Shown: positions 2,596-20,095 of the stretch, one piece after another
How the letters are laid out: each line of letters starts with the position of its first letter
Numbering within the stretch: the first letter of the stretch is position 1
Source: Acidobacteriota bacterium
Lineage (GTDB): Bacteria; Acidobacteriota; Terriglobia; Terriglobales; Acidobacteriaceae
Direction: 5' to 3'
NCBI GenBank assembly: GCA_003225215.1
Contig: QIBC01000029.1
Span: 1 to 41,257 of the forward strand
Length of the DNA: 41,257 nt
The notes under the pieces: generated by a model
Seen by the model: only the letters and a program-made list of their open reading frames with translations
Databases searched by the model: none
What the model was told of the DNA's origin: nothing
Program-made: the position numbers and the translations under genes

Positions 2596-3792
2596 TTATA
2601 CCTGTCCGTGGTGCTGGAGCTTTACCTGTAGGGCTTCGCGCACTGCATCCTGCAGCGACTGCGGCAGCTTGCTTCCACTTGACGTTAGGTAGAAGACATC
2701 GAGCGCCATTTCGCCTTCGGTGTCGATAAGAGCAATCTCGATATTGCACTTCAACTCTGCCAGCACCTCTGCTATGCGGTACAGCAATCCGGGACGATCC
2801 TCCGCGATGACTTCCAGCAGCGTGCTGTGAGTCGAGGACTCGTCATCGATCGTGATCTTCGTTTCTATCTTCACTCGCGCGCGGTTCGTACCCTTGAATC
2901 CCGATCGGGCGCGGATCAGGTGCTCCAGCGAACGGCCGCCGCTCACTACTTCCGAAATGTCTTTCTTTAACCGCTCGTGTTCGGAAGGGTTCAGATCGAG
3001 GGTGCGAAAGCGATCTTTGAAGTAAAAGCAGTCGATGACCGTGCCTTTGCTGTTAGAGAATGCGTTGGCCTTGACGATCTCCATGCCCCAGGCTGAGAGG
3101 GCTCCAGCGAGCGTGGCAAAGAGAAAAGGCTTATCTCTGGTGACGACCGTGAGCTCGTATAGATTGCGATGAGGAGCCAAGACAAGCTGAACGGGTTGCT
3201 GCCAAAGTCTCAAAGCGAGTTCAAGATGCTTTAGGACCTGCTCGCTTCCGTAGGTCCTCAAGTAGCGTTGAGGTAATCCATCAAGCAATGACTCTAAGTC
3301 TTTGATTAGTGGCGCTGTAAGAGCCTGAAACTTCGCGTTTGATTCCCGATCCAGCCGGCCGTGAACTCGCTCTTCGTCCACGTGGCGATTGAGGAAGTTC
3401 GAAGTTGCAACATAGACGTGCCAAAGATTTTCGGCCTTCCATTCCGTCATCGCTTCTGGATTCACGGATGCGATGTCGCCATAGGTGAGAAGAGTGAGCA
3501 TCTTCAGCATCTCGGGCGTGCCGACTCTTTCCGCGAAACCGCCAACGACTTTCGCTTCGAAGAAATCTCTGCGCATAGCCGCGGACATTTCAAGATGGTT
3601 CTGAATGAGAAATTCGATGGTTTCTCGTTCCTCAGTCGGTAACCCGAGACGAATCAGGACGTCGCGTGCCGACGCAAGACTCCCAATCACATGGCTCTCG
3701 CCCTCAATCCCTTTCCCGATATCGTGCAGCAGTAAGGACAAGAACAGCAGCTCCGGCTTTGCGAGGTAAGAATGCGCCGCAAATATGGCCAT
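2596..3792 (-). CDS. glnD: GlnD C-terminal fragment (HD + two ACT domains), frameshifted
   Basis: This frame holds the C-terminal half of [protein-PII] uridylyltransferase / uridylyl-removing enzyme. The HD signature LLLHDIGKG (H23, D24 of this frame) belongs to the UMP-removing domain. An ACT domain lies around residues 207-260 and a second (RPGLLYRIAEVLAELKCNIEIA) around 335-385; these sense glutamine in the family. The frame opens at an internal ATG preceded in frame by TGA and overlaps the N-terminal fragment by 106 nt in another frame. Compared with complete GlnD proteins as I remember them, the stretch with the first HD-domain histidine (YTVDEHT-like) is absent from both frames. It is best read as half of a damaged gene, or of a gene broken by an assembly error, rather than an independent protein. 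Confidence 0.85.
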   Translation of the reverse strand: MAIFAAHSYLAKPELLFLSLLLHDIGKGIEGESHVIGSLASARDVLIRLGLPTEERETIEFLIQNHLEMSAAMRRDFFEAKVVGGFAERVGTPEMLKMLTLLTYGDIASVNPEAMTEWKAENLWHVYVATSNFLNRHVDEERVHGRLDRESNAKFQALTAPLIKDLESLLDGLPQRYLRTYGSEQVLKHLELALRLWQQPVQLVLAPHRNLYELTVVTRDKPFLFATLAGALSAWGMEIVKANAFSNSKGTVIDCFYFKDRFRTLDLNPSEHERLKKDISEVVSGGRSLEHLIRARSGFKGTNRARVKIETKITIDDESSTHSTLLEVIAEDRPGLLYRIAEVLAELKCNIEIALIDTEGEMALDVFYLTSSGSKLPQSLQDAVREALQVKLQHHGQV

Positions 3793-4979
3793 AGCGATTC
3801 TCTGGCTTCATCCACGTGCAGCGTCGAAACCACCTCAGTGATCGCGCGTTGGGCGTCGATGCCGAGCCGCAAGTCTTCTCTCGCCATGCGATCGAAGATG
3901 TTCAGCAGGGCTGGATATTCGTTCAGGCGATAGCCCTTCGGCAAAACAATCCCACCAGATACGATCGACAACTCGCCGTTTGATTTTTGCGACCGCCGCC
4001 ACCTCTTCAGACCCGCGCCTAATGATGATTTCTTAGCAGGCAGCTCTTCCAGAAGCTGAATTGCAGCTCCCGCCACAAGGCGCGCGTGACGGAAGTACGC
4101 GCGCATCCACTGCGGCGTGTCTGTCGGCTGACGACCAATGCCGATTCCGTTCGCCGCAGCAGCATCTTGCGCTTCCCAAGACAGGAGATTGTCATCGCGT
4201 CCGTTGCGATAGTGGAGAAAGGAACGAAGAGAAAACAGAAACTCGACAGCCGAGTCCAGCTCTGACTGTAAACGCGACTCAAACAAGGAACCCATATTGG
4301 GCCAGGTGTTTGCTTCGAGAAAGTGACTCACCAAGGCAAGCCAGCAAGCCAGGTTATAGTCGCGAAGACCGCCGGGACCTTCCTTAACATTGGGCTCGAG
4401 GTGATAGATCGTACTTGCGAACTTGTGGTGACGCGAGCGAGCCGATTCCGCAACTCTCGTGAGCAGCGTTCGGCCAGACTTCCTCAGAAGAGCGGGCAGA
4501 GTCTTCACGCGAACCCGCTCAAACAATTCTCGATCTCCCAGAAGAAAGCGCGAATCGAGCATTGAGACCGTGAACTCCATGTTCTCGGGATCAAATCGCC
4601 CGCATTCCGCCACGGTGCGCGCTGTGGCACTTGCACGAATCTTGAGGTCCCATAGATCGAGATAGACGCGGCTGAGCGCGTCTTTATGGCTCGCTTCCTC
4701 CTTTGCGTCCTTGAAAAGAAAGAGCAAGTCAACATCGGAGTGAGGCAAGAGTGTGCTTCGGCCGTAGCCTCCAAGTGCAACGATGGCCACACAATTGGAA
4801 GGAACAGAGCCTTGCTCGACAAGACGTTGGTAGCAGCGGCGGATGACATCATCTACAAGCTGCGAACGCCCCTGGACGACGGCGGTTCCATTCCCGGAGA
4901 TCTGGAATTGTTTCCGCAGCGTGGCGAGTCCATCTTCATACGCTTCACGCACCTCGCTGCTGGACAAAAGGACTGACAT
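3687..4979 (-). CDS. glnD: GlnD N-terminal fragment (nucleotidyltransferase domain), frameshifted
   Basis: This frame holds the N-terminal uridylyltransferase half of GlnD, which normally adds UMP to the PII protein when glutamine is low. The nucleotidyltransferase signature GGYGRSTLLPHSDVDLLFLF spans about residues 70-89, with metal-binding D82 and D84. It is followed by the helical NTase-associated region (EGPGGLRDYNLACWLA) and a segment ending SLWPYLRRIL. After about residue 408 the frame carries a Cys/Ser-rich tail that is the wrong frame of the HD region. The two fragments together cover 2384 nt, about 794 codons, whereas GlnD is usually 850-930 residues. It is followed upstream by glnB and amtB on the same strand, a natural nitrogen-control grouping. 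Confidence 0.87.
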   Translation of the reverse strand: MSVLLSSSEVREAYEDGLATLRKQFQISGNGTAVVQGRSQLVDDVIRRCYQRLVEQGSVPSNCVAIVALGGYGRSTLLPHSDVDLLFLFKDAKEEASHKDALSRVYLDLWDLKIRASATARTVAECGRFDPENMEFTVSMLDSRFLLGDRELFERVRVKTLPALLRKSGRTLLTRVAESARSRHHKFASTIYHLEPNVKEGPGGLRDYNLACWLALVSHFLEANTWPNMGSLFESRLQSELDSAVEFLFSLRSFLHYRNGRDDNLLSWEAQDAAAANGIGIGRQPTDTPQWMRAYFRHARLVAGAAIQLLEELPAKKSSLGAGLKRWRRSQKSNGELSIVSGGIVLPKGYRLNEYPALLNIFDRMAREDLRLGIDAQRAITEVVSTLHVDEARESLWPYLRRILTSQSRSCCSCPYCCTISGKGLRARAM

Positions 4980-7628: not shown

Positions 7629-8558
7629 TCAACTGCAGCTAATCGCAGCGCAAGCTGGAAGACTCACCTGGTTGTGAACTCGCAAGATTGAAGTACGAAA
7701 CGGAATGCCAAGTGGCCGATAGCTCTCAGACAAGAGATCGGCCACTGCGTGGCACCTTTGTCGAGCCAGCGCCACGATCGATGGACCGGAACCACCGAGG
7801 AACGCTCCCAGCAAGTCGGGATGCGAGAGCTTGAGGGCTGTGCTTAAACCGGGCACGAGTGATTCTCTTGCCGGCTGATGAAGACGGTCACAGAGCGCTT
7901 CCGCCAGGGCTCCATCGTCGCCGCTTTGAATCGATTGCAGGAGAAGCAATACTCGCTGCATGTTCGAAACCGCGTCCCTCAAACTCACTGAATCGGGCAG
8001 TGCCTGACGTGAGGTCTGCGTGGCGAGTCGAATTTGAGGCGTTAGTACAACAAGGCAGAGTGATTCCGGCCACGGCAATGAGAACGCTGAGACGGTACCG
8101 TCCTGTCTTTGGCAGCAGACGGAGAGTCCCCCAAGGAGTGCGGCAGCAGCATTGTCCGCGTGTCCTTCCAACTGCAACGCCGCCGAGAGCAATCGATCTT
8201 CGCTTTGCTTTCCGAAGAGAACTTCATAGAGACGAAAGCCCGCGATGGTTGCGGCGGCGCTGCTTCCCAGTCCAGCGCCCATGGGAATGTCGCTGCTGAC
8301 ACTGATCTGCAGGGAGGGAAAATCGCCATTGTTCCGCGCCAAGGTGTGGAATGCTGTCTCGATGCGATTCTCACTCGGGGGAGCTTGTGATTCAAAATGG
8401 AATTCCAGGCTTCCATGTTTTGTGTTGCTAACGCCTACGACGCGAACTCTCAAGTAAAGCTGCACGGCTACTGCTAAAGTATCCAGGCCGGGACCGAGGT
8501 TCGCAATCGATCCCGGCACCGTAATCTCGGCGCTTTCCAGGCAATCGCTCCACATCAT
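7629..8558 (-). CDS. thrB: homoserine kinase
   Basis: This enzyme phosphorylates homoserine with ATP to O-phosphohomoserine, the penultimate step of threonine synthesis. It is a 309-residue GHMP kinase: the N-terminal VPGSIANLGPGLDTLAVAVQ and the ATP-binding PMGAGLGSSAAATIAG loop (about residues 92-107) are diagnostic, and a C-terminal GAFLGGSGPSIVAL glycine motif closes the active site. The start ATG overlaps the thrC stop by 4 nt (ATGA), so it is translationally coupled, and it is the last gene of the lysC-hom-thrC-thrB operon. A second Met at position 2 is an equally possible start. A strong 63-bp hairpin follows the stop codon. Confidence 0.94.
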   Translation of the reverse strand: MMWSDCLESAEITVPGSIANLGPGLDTLAVAVQLYLRVRVVGVSNTKHGSLEFHFESQAPPSENRIETAFHTLARNNGDFPSLQISVSSDIPMGAGLGSSAAATIAGFRLYEVLFGKQSEDRLLSAALQLEGHADNAAAALLGGLSVCCQRQDGTVSAFSLPWPESLCLVVLTPQIRLATQTSRQALPDSVSLRDAVSNMQRVLLLLQSIQSGDDGALAEALCDRLHQPARESLVPGLSTALKLSHPDLLGAFLGGSGPSIVALARQRCHAVADLLSESYRPLGIPFRTSILRVHNQVSLPACAAISCS

Positions 8559-9772
8559 GCCGATACCTCCGCTGCCGCCATCCGTTCGCTATGAGTCTTT
8601 AGGATGATGTCTGGATCTTTCAGAACATGGCCAGTGAGAATGGCGACTACACGGTCATGCTCGCCGATTTCTCCGGTTCGCCGGAGACGACGGATTCCGG
8701 CGAGGGTAGTCGCGGAAGCAGGCTCGCAGCCGATGCCATCGAGCCCGATGACGGATTTGGCTTCGAGGATCTCCTCATCACTGACGTCGAGAACGTTGCC
8801 TTTGGTGAAATTGAGAGCGGTCAAAGCTTTTCTCCAGGATCGCGGAGCCCCGATCGAGATAGCACTGGCGCAAGTCTTCGGCTCCACTACGGCTTCGAGT
8901 TGTCCGCTACCCGCCGCAAGGGTCTTCACCAGCGCGTTTGCACCTCTGGCCTGCACGATCACAAGTCGTGGAACGCGATCGATCAACCGGGCTTCGGAGA
9001 GCTCTCTAAGCGCTTTCCCAAATGCGGAGGAATTCCCCAGGTTACCGCCTGGAACTACGACAAAATCTGGTGGATTCCAGTCGACTTGTTCCATCAACTC
9101 GAACATCGTCGTCTTCTGGCCTTCGACGCGGAACGGGTTGATGGAATTCAGGAAGTACTCCGATGAACTCTTTCGCTCCGTCATCATTGCCAGGGCCTGG
9201 TCGAAGTTCCCGTCCACCTCAACGATCTCAGCGCCATAGTCGAGCGATTGAGCCACCTTCGCAGGCGAGAGTCTTCCCTTTGGTAAATACACACGGGCAG
9301 CGATGCCGGCGCGAGCAGCGTAGGCGGCCATTGAAGCGGCCGTGTTCCCGGTCGAGGCACAAGCGACGACTTTGACTCCTCGTGCACGCGCTTCGGTCAC
9401 TGCCACCGTCATGCCGAGATCTTTAAAGGATCCAGTCGGATTCCAACCCAGATGCTTGAACTGCAAGTTGCTGAGGCCGGCGAACGCTCCAGTCTTGTGT
9501 CCCGCGATCAGCGGAGTGTTTCCCTCACCGAGTGAAACTATTTGGTCACTCGAGTAATCAGGCAGGAACTCTCGAAACCTCCACACGCCGCTGCGGTCTG
9601 CCGGATCGTTCGATAGGCGCCGATCGCGCCATAAGGCCTTCAGCTCGATGGGATCGGGCTGGAAGCCGTTGCAGCTAAGCTCCAGCAAGTCGCCGCACTT
9701 TGGGCAGTCGAAGGCTGCAAAATCGCGCGGAAGGGACTCGCCGCAATGTTGATTGCTGCATTGCAGTTGCAT
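8555..9772 (-). CDS. thrC: threonine synthase
   Basis: This PLP enzyme converts O-phosphohomoserine to threonine. At 405 residues it is the shorter, plant/Bacillus-like type. It has an N-terminal zinc-ribbon of four cysteines (C5, C10, C23, C26), often seen in this group. The PLP lysine is in the NPTGSFKDLGM motif, and the phosphate-binding loop is probably ACASTGNTAASMAAYAA. The gene begins one base after the hom stop and overlaps thrB by 4 nt, so it is an internal gene of the threonine operon. Confidence 0.95.
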   Translation of the reverse strand: MQLQCSNQHCGESLPRDFAAFDCPKCGDLLELSCNGFQPDPIELKALWRDRRLSNDPADRSGVWRFREFLPDYSSDQIVSLGEGNTPLIAGHKTGAFAGLSNLQFKHLGWNPTGSFKDLGMTVAVTEARARGVKVVACASTGNTAASMAAYAARAGIAARVYLPKGRLSPAKVAQSLDYGAEIVEVDGNFDQALAMMTERKSSSEYFLNSINPFRVEGQKTTMFELMEQVDWNPPDFVVVPGGNLGNSSAFGKALRELSEARLIDRVPRLVIVQARGANALVKTLAAGSGQLEAVVEPKTCASAISIGAPRSWRKALTALNFTKGNVLDVSDEEILEAKSVIGLDGIGCEPASATTLAGIRRLRRTGEIGEHDRVVAILTGHVLKDPDIILKTHSERMAAAEVSA

Positions 9773-9773
9773 A

Positions 9774-11069
9774 TCAGTGTCCGAAGATGGGCAGCTTTAA
9801 AGCCGGCTCAACCAGAAATTCGCAGAGCGCAATCTCGTCAAGAGCTGCCTGGAGTTTCTTGCTGCTGCACCGCTCGACGGTGACTACAAAAGGCAGCCGA
9901 GCTTTGTCATAACCAGGTTTCTGGAAGACCGCGTCTACATTGATCTCAAACTTTGCTAACGCTGCAGCGATGGCGGCGACGATGCCGGGCCGGTCGCGGA
10001 CCACGAACCGCAGAAAATATGGTGACATACGTTCATTCGATACCGGTAAAGTCCGCATCTCGCGAATTACTGGAGCTGACGATGCGGAAGCCAGGGCAAC
10101 AAGGTCCGAGATCACGGCGACTGCGGTTGCATCCCCGCCTGCACCTGGCCCAGAGAAGGCGGTGCTGCCTCCGAACTTGCCTTGAGCAAGGACGACGTTC
10201 TCACAACCCTGCGCGCGCGCCAACGGGGAACTCGCGGGAACCAGCATTGGCTCTACTGCAGCAAAGCATTTGTCCGCGACCAGCTCTGCATGTCCGATCT
10301 GTCTGATGGTGCAACCCAACTCGCGCGCGTACTCGAAGTCGACGGGATCAACGGTTGAGATGGGCTGGCAGACCACTTCGCCTAACGTGATTTCCGTGCG
10401 CAGAGCAACGCGCGCGAGGATTACAAGCTTTGCTCGAGTATCGTATCCGGCGATGTCGTCGGTGGGATCGGCTTCGGCATAGCCGAGCTGCTGCGCTTGT
10501 TCCAATGCGAGGCGAAAAGATTCGCCGCTTTCCATCTTGCTCAGAATGTAGTTGCAGGTGCCGTTGAGAATTCCGCAAACCGACTGAAGCTCGTCTCCTG
10601 CGAGTCCGTGTTCCAGGGCAGTAATCACGGGAACGCCACCGGCTACGGAAGCCCCAAAGAGCAATTGGCAGTCGTGCTCCTGCGCGATCTCTGAGAGCTC
10701 AGCTCCATGGCGCGCGATCAATTGCTTGTTTGCCGTGACCACCGACCGGCCAGATTCGAGAATGGACTTAACCCACTGCTTCGCCGGTTCAACGCCTCCC
10801 ATGACTTCGACGACAAACTCCACGTCGCTGGCCAGAACATCGTCGATATTCTCGGTCCACTGAACATCGCGGTTGACCCAGGGAACGCGCTTGCGCTCAA
10901 CGTTGCGGTTGAATACTTGCGTGAGTTCAAGGCCCGCCAGCTTTCCTTCGGACAGGATGCGTGCCACGGATTTGCCAACGGTGCCGAATCCAAGGATTGC
11001 GACCCTGCGTGAATTCAGCGACGGAACAAGCGGTGCGCTTTTGTCGATTAGTACGCTTTGAGTAGCCAT
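9774..11069 (-). CDS. hom: homoserine dehydrogenase
   Basis: This enzyme reduces aspartate semialdehyde to homoserine with NAD(P)H, at the branch to threonine, methionine and isoleucine. It is 431 residues: a Rossmann domain (VAILGFGTVGKSVARIL, about 22-38), the catalytic domain with GGVPVITALEHGLAGDELQSVCGILNGTCNYIL, and a C-terminal ACT domain (FVVRDRPGIVAAIAAALAKF, about 355-374) that usually gives threonine feedback. It is a single-function enzyme, not fused to aspartokinase. GGAGG precedes the ATG and only 4 nt separate it from lysC. Confidence 0.95.
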   Translation of the reverse strand: MATQSVLIDKSAPLVPSLNSRRVAILGFGTVGKSVARILSEGKLAGLELTQVFNRNVERKRVPWVNRDVQWTENIDDVLASDVEFVVEVMGGVEPAKQWVKSILESGRSVVTANKQLIARHGAELSEIAQEHDCQLLFGASVAGGVPVITALEHGLAGDELQSVCGILNGTCNYILSKMESGESFRLALEQAQQLGYAEADPTDDIAGYDTRAKLVILARVALRTEITLGEVVCQPISTVDPVDFEYARELGCTIRQIGHAELVADKCFAAVEPMLVPASSPLARAQGCENVVLAQGKFGGSTAFSGPGAGGDATAVAVISDLVALASASSAPVIREMRTLPVSNERMSPYFLRFVVRDRPGIVAAIAAALAKFEINVDAVFQKPGYDKARLPFVVTVERCSSKKLQAALDEIALCEFLVEPALKLPIFGH

Positions 11070-11073
11070 GTCT

Positions 11074-12501
11074 CTATGCCTCCGCCCGAGCCAGCAGCGG
11101 TTCTTGCGACTTGTTCAATGGAATTGGCGCCTCGGCGTGGTGAATCGCGGGCTGCCGCGGGAACAATGCTAGGTGCAGGGCGCGGACAACCTCGTCAGCG
11201 TCCTCTTCGGCTACCACAAAACTTAGATTCATGTCAGAAGCGCCGTGGAAGATCATCCGCAGAGGTAGATTGGGCAGCGCACTCAAGGCCCGTGCACAAA
11301 TCGCTGGATTTCGCGCCACATTCCGGCCAACTAAGGACACTAACGCGCTTCCCTCGATCACGTTAACCGATGCTCTGTCTCGAAGAAACTCGCTCAGGGC
11401 GTCTGCCCCGCTGCGAGAGTTAAGGAGCAAAGAAAGATTCGAGCGAGACATCGCGGCCAGATCCACGAGGCACTTCTGCCGTTCGAGCGCATCGAAGATC
11501 GCCGAAGTGAGCTTTGCTTCAAGTCCCTGCCGCGCGAATACCTCCGCCAAAGTGATACCGCGCTTACATGCAACCGATCTGACGCGACCTTCTTCACTCG
11601 TCTCCGTAACTTCCACGCGCGTACCGCAGTTCTCGGGATGGCGCGAATTGAGGACATACACCGGAATACCACGATCCATGGCGGGCTGCAGCGTCTTCGG
11701 GTGCAATACTTTGGCTCCGAAATGGGCCAATTCGGCAGCTTCGTCGAAGCTGATGGATTCGATGTTCTGCGCGTCGGAGCAAATGCGCGGATCGGCGGTC
11801 ATCATCCCGTCAACATCCGTCCAAATCTCGATGGATTCGGCTTCGAGGCTCGCACCGAGAATCGATGCGGTAAAGTCGGAGCCGCCCCGGCCTAACGTGG
11901 TGGGAATGCCATCCTCGGTCGATCCGATGAAGCCGCCGAGCACGGGAACGCAACCGCTCTGGACTCGTGGACGAATCCTCGTTCCTACGCGGGCTGCAAT
12001 AAGATCGATCCGCGGAGTCGCGTGGGAGTAATTCGCGTCGGTTACGACAACATCGCCGGCGTCAACGTGAACCGCTCGAAGACCTTCAGCGCGAAACGCC
12101 TCCGCAACCAGGCGGCTGGACCACCGTTCCCCAAAACCGAGCAGCCGGTCCAGCGTGCGCGGAGTTAGCTCCTGCACTGCAAATACAGCTTTGAGCAGGG
12201 CACGAGCCTCGTCGAACAAGGGCCGCAGGTCGTTCTTGAAAAAGGCTTCGCTCTTGTTTGGAAACAATGCTTTAGCAGCTTCGTGATGGCGATCTTCACA
12301 TCCGTGCAAGAGCGACAACGCATCCTCAAGTGCTCCATCACGACTGAGCGCACCCATCGTCTGTAGCCCATCGGTAACGCCGGCCAGCGCGCTGACGACC
12401 ACAACAGGTTGGAGGTGAAGTCGTTCGCGCACAATTCTCGCGACGCGACCGATGCTTTCCGCGCAAGCTACCGAGGTTCCGCCAAACTTCATTACCAGCA
12501 T
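11074..12501 (-). CDS. lysC: aspartate kinase
   Basis: This enzyme phosphorylates aspartate, the first step of the pathway to lysine, threonine, methionine and isoleucine. It has 475 residues from ATG 12501: the kinase signature VMKFGGTSVA is at the extreme N-terminus, a LGRGGSDFTA motif lies in the middle, and two C-terminal ACT-type regulatory segments follow (around SNLSLLLNSRSG and MIFHGASDMNLSFVV). I prefer ATG 12501 because AGGAG lies 5 nt upstream. The longer frame to 12543 begins inside the terminator hairpin. It is the first structural gene of the operon and directly downstream of the attenuator. This suggests that the whole aspartate-to-threonine route is controlled as one unit. Confidence 0.95.
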   Translation of the reverse strand: MLVMKFGGTSVACAESIGRVARIVRERLHLQPVVVVSALAGVTDGLQTMGALSRDGALEDALSLLHGCEDRHHEAAKALFPNKSEAFFKNDLRPLFDEARALLKAVFAVQELTPRTLDRLLGFGERWSSRLVAEAFRAEGLRAVHVDAGDVVVTDANYSHATPRIDLIAARVGTRIRPRVQSGCVPVLGGFIGSTEDGIPTTLGRGGSDFTASILGASLEAESIEIWTDVDGMMTADPRICSDAQNIESISFDEAAELAHFGAKVLHPKTLQPAMDRGIPVYVLNSRHPENCGTRVEVTETSEEGRVRSVACKRGITLAEVFARQGLEAKLTSAIFDALERQKCLVDLAAMSRSNLSLLLNSRSGADALSEFLRDRASVNVIEGSALVSLVGRNVARNPAICARALSALPNLPLRMIFHGASDMNLSFVVAEEDADEVVRALHLALFPRQPAIHHAEAPIPLNKSQEPLLARAEA

Positions 12502-12532: not shown

Positions 12533-12563
12533 AAAAAACCCACCGCCGTCTGGCGGTGGGTTT
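12533..12563 (-). terminator. intrinsic terminator in the lysC leader (attenuator hairpin 3:4)
   Basis: On the minus strand AAACCCACCGCC pairs with GGCGGTGGGTTT around an AGAC loop, and the second arm runs into six consecutive T (plus positions 12533-12538). This is a 12-bp stem and U-tract, a classic Rho-independent terminator. It stands about 32 nt before the lysC ATG and would stop transcription before the operon. It is therefore an attenuator, not an end-of-gene terminator. Confidence 0.93.
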
Positions 12564-12665
12564 GGGTATCTGAAACTTATTAGTGCTTAGATATCTCCCT
12601 CCGCCAGATGAGCAGTGGACATAATTGTCCCTGTTGTTGTCATCGACATCGTAATTTGGCGGAAG
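12549..12665 (-). promoter_or_regulatory. mutually exclusive leader RNA hairpins (antiterminator/anti-antiterminator)
   Basis: Three segments can be read on the minus strand. Segment 1 is CTTCCGCCA (12665-12657), just before the leader ATG. Segment 2 is TCTGGCGGAGGG (12608-12597), inside the last codons of the leader peptide. Segment 3 is CCCACCGCCAGA (12560-12549), the left arm and loop of the terminator. Segments 1 and 2 form 9 consecutive pairs with one G-U. Segments 2 and 3 form 11 pairs with one A-A mismatch, and 2:3 pairing destroys the terminator. This is the geometry of ribosome-mediated attenuation. Confidence 0.85.
12587..12649 (-). CDS. threonine-rich leader peptide of the lysC-hom-thrC-thrB operon (thrL-like)
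   Basis: This is a 20-codon ORF, too short for routine gene calling: MSMTTTGTIMST followed by AHLAEGDI and TAA. It contains five Thr (codons 4, 5, 6, 8, 12), three Met and two Ile, so half of its residues are end products of the aspartate family, as in E. coli thrL with its Thr and Ile codons. It lies between a good promoter and an intrinsic terminator. Its 3' part encodes the antiterminator strand, so a ribosome stalled on the ACA ACA ACA run would leave that strand free, while a ribosome reaching the stop codon would cover it. The weak point is the lack of a clear Shine-Dalgarno before the ATG; a second ATG two codons in is an alternative start. Confidence 0.8.
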   Translation of the reverse strand: MSMTTTGTIMSTAHLAEGDI

Positions 12666-12682
12666 TTCAACAAAGTGTCGTC

Positions 12683-12711
12683 ATCCTAGTGCAGAATTTG
12701 GGGGCAGTCAA
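12683..12711 (-). promoter_or_regulatory. sigma-70-type promoter for the lysC-hom-thrC-thrB operon
   Basis: On the minus strand TTGACT (12711-12706), a 17-bp spacer and TAGGAT (12688-12683) form a near-consensus housekeeping promoter. The predicted start near 12676 gives a leader RNA of about 27 nt before the leader-peptide ATG and about 175 nt before lysC. Confidence 0.75.
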
Positions 12712-19126: not shown

Positions 19127-20095
19127 ATGGAAAGTCCGAAGACCTTACAGCAAGCCATCATTCATTTCAGCGAGTACGAAAACTGCCGTCAGTTCATGAT
19201 CGCGGTTCGCTGGCTAGATGGCAGCGTGAAGTGTCCCATCTGCAATTCAGAGAACGTCATCTACCTGGAGAACGCCCGTCTCTACAAATGCCGCGAGAAT
19301 CACCCGCGTCAGAAGTTCTCTCTCAAAGTGGGAACCGTGTTTGAGGATTCTCCCATTGGTTTAGATAAATGGCTTCCTGCCGTTTGGATGCTGGTGAACT
19401 GCAAGAACGGAGTCAGCTCCTACGAACTTCATCGCGCATTGGGAGTCACCCAGAAAACCGCTTGGTTCATGCTTCACCGCATTCGCCTTGCTGTTCACAG
19501 CGGCTCTTTCAGCAAGAAGCTAGGTGGCCCTGATAGCGAAATCGAAGTGGACGAGAGTTTCATCGGCGGCAAAGCTCGGAACATGCACATTGATGTTCGC
19601 AAACGTCGCATCACCGGAACCGGCGGCAAGGGTAAGGCAATGGTGTTTGGCATCTTGGAACGCGGTGGGCAGGTTCGCACCGCTGTCCTTCTCAATCGCC
19701 AGAAGGAAACCGTCCAACCTGAAATCAAGAAGCACGTTCAAGGCGGAACCGCTCTTTACACCGATGAAATGCTCGGCTATCGCGGGTTGGAAGCGGACTT
19801 CGCGCACAAGGTCGTAGATCACGCGGTTAAATACGTAAATGGCCGCGTACACACAAACGGATTGGAAAACTTCTGGAGTCTGCTGAAGCGCGGACTTGCG
19901 GGAACCTACGTTAGCGTAGAGCCGTTCCACCTGTTCCGGTATCTGGACGAGCAGAGCTTCCGTTACAACAACCGTGCCACTGAGGATAATCCATTGAACG
20001 ATGCTGACCGTTTCAGCTATGCGATGAGTCAGATTGTCGGGAAGCGTTTGACCTATGAGGAGTTGACCGGCAAGGTGGGAGAAACGCCGTTCTAA
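19127..20095 (+). CDS. IS1595 family transposase (ISXO2-like)
   Basis: This is a 322-residue DDE transposase. The N-terminal zinc-ribbon has CPIC (C36, C39) and C55; then comes a helix-turn-helix-like segment (VSSYELHRALGVTQKTAWFMLHRIR, about 96-120), and the ISXO2-type catalytic domain with D142 (EVDESFIGG), D213 (YTDEMLGY) and E247 (NGLENFWSLLKR), matching the family's DDE/N pattern. The length is normal and no frameshift is seen, so it may be active. No Shine-Dalgarno is seen before the ATG, consistent with the promoter lying only a few bases away. Its 3' end overlaps the convergent 65-residue passenger gene by 4 nt. Confidence 0.95.
   Translation: MESPKTLQQAIIHFSEYENCRQFMIAVRWLDGSVKCPICNSENVIYLENARLYKCRENHPRQKFSLKVGTVFEDSPIGLDKWLPAVWMLVNCKNGVSSYELHRALGVTQKTAWFMLHRIRLAVHSGSFSKKLGGPDSEIEVDESFIGGKARNMHIDVRKRRITGTGGKGKAMVFGILERGGQVRTAVLLNRQKETVQPEIKKHVQGGTALYTDEMLGYRGLEADFAHKVVDHAVKYVNGRVHTNGLENFWSLLKRGLAGTYVSVEPFHLFRYLDEQSFRYNNRATEDNPLNDADRFSYAMSQIVGKRLTYEELTGKVGETPF

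Follow-up and report, generated by a model that had tools for sequence, protein, structure and literature searches.

Upstream of a lysC-hom-thrC-thrB operon in the 41,257-nucleotide stretch of DNA analysed here (the window), we predict a ribosome-mediated transcription attenuator which very probably controls these four genes by sensing charged tRNA-Thr, probably together with tRNA-Ile and possibly tRNA-Met. This reading is built on the parts themselves, their conservation, covariation in both the antiterminator and the terminator, and the match between leader residues and downstream pathway, all of which were observed. The operon genes lie on the minus strand and were assigned by NCBIfam, each above the model cut-off: lysC, aspartate kinase (11074–12501; TIGR00657), hom, homoserine dehydrogenase (9774–11069; NF004976), thrC, threonine synthase (8555–9772; TIGR00260), and thrB, homoserine kinase (7629–8558; TIGR00191). 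The amino acid specified by the control codons is the product of the genes that follow, as judged from NCBIfam profiles and, for relatives of the element, from similarity. The best named contigs with a relative of LysC are Acidobacteriota MAGs, in agreement with the acidobacterium-like host proposed in a first-pass annotation of this DNA.

Read directly on the minus strand, the element begins with the promoter TTGACT-N17-TAGGAT, present as the first-pass annotation described it. The -35 element (TTGACT, 12706–12711) is followed after a 17-nt spacer by the -10 element (TAGGAT, 12683–12688), which ends 12 nt before a probable UUG start codon at 12670; the layout is kept in relatives of the same genus. 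Downstream, an ORF running from ATG 12649 to the TAA at 12589–12587 encodes MSMTTTGTIMSTAHLAEGDI. This is the 20-codon, Thr-rich ORF noted earlier; it exists as described, but the alignment of relatives indicates that its start is probably seven codons farther upstream, at 12670, giving a leader of 27 codons (12587–12670). The upstream start is the likelier because the ORFs of the same-genus relatives G004, G001 and G003 are in frame from ATG, TTG and ATG, respectively, aligned with window position 12670 (ATG in loci L084 and L086, TTG in L085), and because an ATG is absent from the G003 leader, MNAIRRISIEITITRTSMPTIESAEGCS, where it aligns with 12649. The full leader, UUG AAC UUC CGC CAA AUU ACG AUG UCG AUG ACA ACA ACA GGG ACA AUU AUG ... 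UAA, contains six Thr, three Ile and three internal Met codons, with the control codons ACA ACA ACA GGG ACA at 12626–12640. Since this start lies only 12 nt past the -10 element, the transcript should be almost leaderless.

Four pairing arms follow from the same strand. Arm 1 (12656–12666; ACTTCCGCCAA) occupies leader codons 2–5, and so falls within the leader ORF if translation starts at 12670; arm 2 (12597–12608; TCTGGCGGAGGG), the antiterminator strand, lies in the last leader codons; and arm 3 (12549–12560; CCCACCGCCAGA) has two possible partners, arm 2 in the antiterminator and arm 4 in the terminator. The segment CTTCCGCCA of arm 1 (12665–12657) forms nine pairs with arm 2, one of them G-U, while 11 of 12 positions are paired between arm 2 and arm 3 (12560–12549); direct reading thereby confirmed the two alternative partners originally claimed for arm 2, with nine pairs on one side and 11 with one mismatch on the other. 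Pairings 1:2 and 2:3 are mutually exclusive, and the terminator is 3:4. A small hairpin at the leader stop (12567–12593), situated between arms 2 and 3, fits both states. The intrinsic terminator (12533–12563) has the 12-bp stem (12563–12552 with arm 4, 12547–12536) and the six U (T run 12538–12533) that had been reported, but three of these six U are inside the stem. The leader folds with z = -6.2 relative to dinucleotide shuffles, and the isolated folds of 1:2, 2:3 and 3:4 (-26.2, -24.0 and -23.3 kcal/mol, respectively) each lie beyond 200 of 200 shuffles.

Such parts could also be those of an ordinary terminator, or mark where a small RNA ends, beside an ORF that is Thr-rich by chance; there would then be no regulation. 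In the 7-kb region, patterns resembling terminators or promoters do not in themselves exceed the number expected, and the promoter match by itself is not above chance (three promoter-like sites in the window scan versus 2.2 expected). We nevertheless give this explanation very little weight, since different genera share the leader frame, the Thr content, the antiterminator pairing and the placement ahead of lysC/hom, and since the Cys, branched-chain and Pro versions of the leader match their own genes.

The evidence for conservation comes from the regions upstream of hom at 80 loci of the family and in the orthologs; many of the genomes compared are incomplete assemblies. LysC had been considered as the ortholog marker and was dropped in favour of hom, as most of its matches were to a second LysC paralog, encoded separately and lacking the element. 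One convincing match to the element, itself a lysC-hom pair, was obtained from 80 lysC loci, and separate lysC loci were otherwise devoid of it. Orthologs from the same genus retain the leader and all arms. A short Thr/Ile/Met ORF followed by a terminator was found in most places where lysC stands directly before hom and in some of the hom-first cases; among the 80 hom upstream regions and orthologs, no such leader was seen in many of the genomes whose operon opens with hom.

Across the family, 28 lysC/hom regions repeat the combination of a Thr-rich leader and both alternative helices, and in 21 of these 28 (alignment A1) the leader end offers arm 3 a better partner than dinucleotide shuffles do (p < 0.05). 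In the alignment of leaders from related genomes, which had been proposed as a check on the attenuator, the leader ORF is kept and both helices covary above shuffles. When the sequences were aligned by sequence only, 72.9% of alignment cells paired in the 2:3 antiterminator (47.2% in the best slid register) and 89.0% in the 3:4 terminator. Covariation was 0.144 for 2:3 (0.089 in shuffles) and 0.217 for 3:4 (0.121 in shuffles); for each helix, none of 500 shuffles reached the observed value, which also exceeded all register slides. Of 34 Thr leaders, 26 had a 1:2 duplex stronger than shuffles, and the count for 2:3 was also 26. Fisher and combined p-values for pairing overstate the significance, the sequences being related. 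The alignment set and the frames of the leader peptides were picked by hand, while the control on covariance-model matches was automatic.

The covariance model behind this control describes the RNA body from the last leader codons to the terminator and leaves out most of the leader. Matches (E up to 0.001) were present in 46 of 100 family genomes, representing 40 of 79 genera, and 40 of these matches were examined, the choice favouring those not already tied to lysC-hom. All six examined matches located before lysC carry a Thr-rich ORF (0.72 expected), and none a Cys-rich one. Among the other 34, 28 carry a Cys-rich ORF (0.12 expected), mostly ahead of sulfite reductase or siroheme synthase genes. 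As identified by similarity or profiles, the genes that follow these 34 code for sulfite/nitrite reductase in 22 cases and siroheme synthase in three, and in three more, with branched-chain (Ile/Val/Leu) leaders, they are ilvB, ilvC or ilvD; a mercaptopyruvate sulfurtransferase gene and a tRNA-Cys gene are among the remainder. Because the model covers only the leader end, past the Thr or Cys run, the correspondence of residue and pathway is largely independent evidence, and it lends strong, if indirect, support to ribosome-mediated attenuation. The swapped leaders are in effect natural controls.

Across the phylum, 20 of 396 genomes had model matches. Outside the family, inspection of translations revealed Cys leaders before cysteine synthase and PAPS-reductase-like ORFs, and an Ile/Val leader before an ilvB-like gene. 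In the window's own genome, a second attenuator-like leader, this one rich in Pro (MFLRIPNPPIPCPPPACARWCGCMEDA) and followed by a terminator, precedes a proC-like gene (L297; G000:C126:7999-8076), although the match is weak (E 1.2) and the gene was named by inspection. No Cys or branched-chain leader was found directly before the sulfite reductase or ilvB of this genome, both of which seem to sit inside longer operons. We think it somewhat probable that Acidobacteriota share a modular, near-leaderless attenuator platform, a single RNA body with interchangeable Thr/Ile/Met, Cys, branched-chain and Pro leaders, and that this makes up an amino-acid regulon, extended in some genomes to a tRNA-Cys gene behind a Cys leader.

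The composition of the leaders identifies the probable signals. Thr contributes 19.3% of the residues read in frame from 34 Thr leaders (the two remaining frames give 2.5 and 2.1%), with Ile at 9.0%, Met at 6.2% and Lys at 2.6%; in 30 Cys leaders, Cys accounts for 22.8% and Met for 5.0%. ACA represents 59% of the Thr codons in Thr-type leaders versus 10% in ten window genes, and TGT 70% of the Cys codons in Cys leaders versus 24% in the same ten genes; codons of this rarity would be expected to make stalling sharper. The signals are likely to be Thr and Ile. Perhaps, instead, a ribosome-dependent attenuator responds mainly to methionine, or to a general slowing of translation, rather than to threonine: Met reaches the 6.2% quoted above in Thr-type leaders against 2.1% in window genes, and methionine, too, derives from homoserine. 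Thr is nevertheless the more frequent residue and is clustered, and the similar Met content of Cys-type leaders argues that Met enrichment is not specific to this operon, so that we consider a response of this kind to be quite improbable. Met as a specific signal was accordingly left unproven. Of the broader aspartate-family sensing suggested in the first-pass annotation, the enrichment of Ile alongside Thr was upheld, but with Met nearly as enriched in Cys leaders and Lys near background, sensing of the whole family is unproven.

Other members of the group may have an almost leaderless start too. In 41 of 66 leaders, against 2.6 expected, a -10 element ends 5–15 nt ahead of the predicted start codon; a Shine-Dalgarno-like core is found in just five of 67 members. 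A published survey gives the mean share of leaderless genes in three acidobacterial genomes as 13.3% (PMC3160421).

We infer the transcription and translation start sites, termination, stalling and the response to threonine from this arrangement, as follows. The transcript would begin a few bases ahead of the leader start codon, and the leader would be translated almost leaderless. With ample threonine, a ribosome at the stop codon would cover arm 2, or would depart and allow 1:2 to re-form; with arm 2 masked, arm 3 would pair with arm 4 and RNA polymerase would halt near 12533. When threonine is short, the ribosome would stall between arms 1 and 2, where the rare ACA codons are, leaving arm 2 free to pair with arm 3, which would block the terminator and permit transcription of the operon. 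This stall-or-stop logic, put forward at the outset, is supported by the recurrent Thr leaders, the alternative pairings and the swapped leaders with matching residues. Judging from the codon positions, a ribosome stalled at the first ACA (12640) may not fully cover arm 1, so that 1:2 could compete with 2:3; if arm 1 is unhidden, 2:3 must outcompete it.

Threonine, a metabolite or uncharged tRNA might also be sensed directly by a riboswitch or T-box, the ORF being incidental; T-boxes and riboswitches do control this pathway family in other bacteria. Against this, the element matched no Rfam riboswitch, T-box or aptamer model and no Rfam family at the gathering score, the best weak matches being to unrelated small RNAs and leaders. 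Moreover, a conserved aptamer is not visible, and the sequence upstream of arm 2 changes with the leader codons. We therefore regard direct sensing as exceedingly improbable, and return to the leader-peptide attenuator.

The E. coli thr operon has a Thr/Ile-rich leader peptide, an antiterminator competing with a terminator, and a fused thrA. The acidobacterial element would work like this attenuator, as was originally suggested: a leader ORF with pathway codons, a terminator, a mutually exclusive antiterminator and matching threonine genes were all found, which covers every feature of leader-peptide attenuators that sequence comparison can address. It is not a member of Rfam Thr_leader, which gave no match at the gathering score nor among matches with E up to 10. 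It differs from thrL in preceding separate lysC and hom genes rather than a fused thrA, in its predicted near-leaderless start with arms 1 and 2 both within the leader ORF, and in an RNA body held in common with Cys and branched-chain leaders.

Most descriptions of leader-peptide attenuation concern Proteobacteria, Actinobacteria and certain Firmicutes. In Actinobacteria, including the Corynebacterium ilvB-II uORF, it likewise involves translation of a uORF, pathway codons and a choice between terminator and antiterminator (PMC1262725, PMC10272879), features shared with the element described here. The actinobacterial survey reported no such structures before threonine operons (PMC1262725). Attenuators with leaderless polycysteine ORFs are known from mycobacteria (Canestrari et al. 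2020, as cited in PMC13236596 and PMC9031893). Going by title and citation, these are, like our Cys-type relatives, short leaderless ORFs with a Cys run before operons; they belong to another phylum, and the element described here has a strong intrinsic terminator and an antiterminator. In a 2010 survey, almost no predicted attenuator of Acidobacteria had an associated function (PMC2965389). Searches of open-access papers turned up no work on threonine attenuators from Acidobacteriota, though subscription papers may hold an earlier prediction. The mechanism is classical, and what is new is its apparently widespread use in Acidobacteriota, unreported in the papers searched: leader-peptide attenuation is indicated as widespread in one family and present in others, and a function, a mechanism and testable predictions now follow for a large set of attenuators in a phylum abundant in soil.

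Several relatives of the element have less expected neighbours. In L269 (G050:C17) a Cys-leader attenuator (351–459) is directly followed by a tRNA-Cys gene with anticodon gca (467–543), an arrangement that points to control of a tRNA gene by the supply of cysteine; this would be an unusual target. In L308 (G394:C56) a leader with a Cys run (1501–1595) precedes a peroxiredoxin-like ORF, identified by inspection, and a tRNA-Cys gene (2349–2424) lies approximately 750 nt farther along. Cys-rich leaders also precede genes for FadL/OmpP1-like outer membrane proteins, an unexpected target, in L277 (identified by Pfam) and L307 (by inspection).

Elsewhere in the window, a tmRNA gene (Rfam RF00023) is located on the plus strand at 2057–2426. 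By inspection, two overlapping ORFs in different frames on the minus strand (2596–4979) resemble a single glnD-type gene split by a frameshift or an assembly error, and a plus-strand ORF (19127–20095) resembles an IS1595-type transposase.
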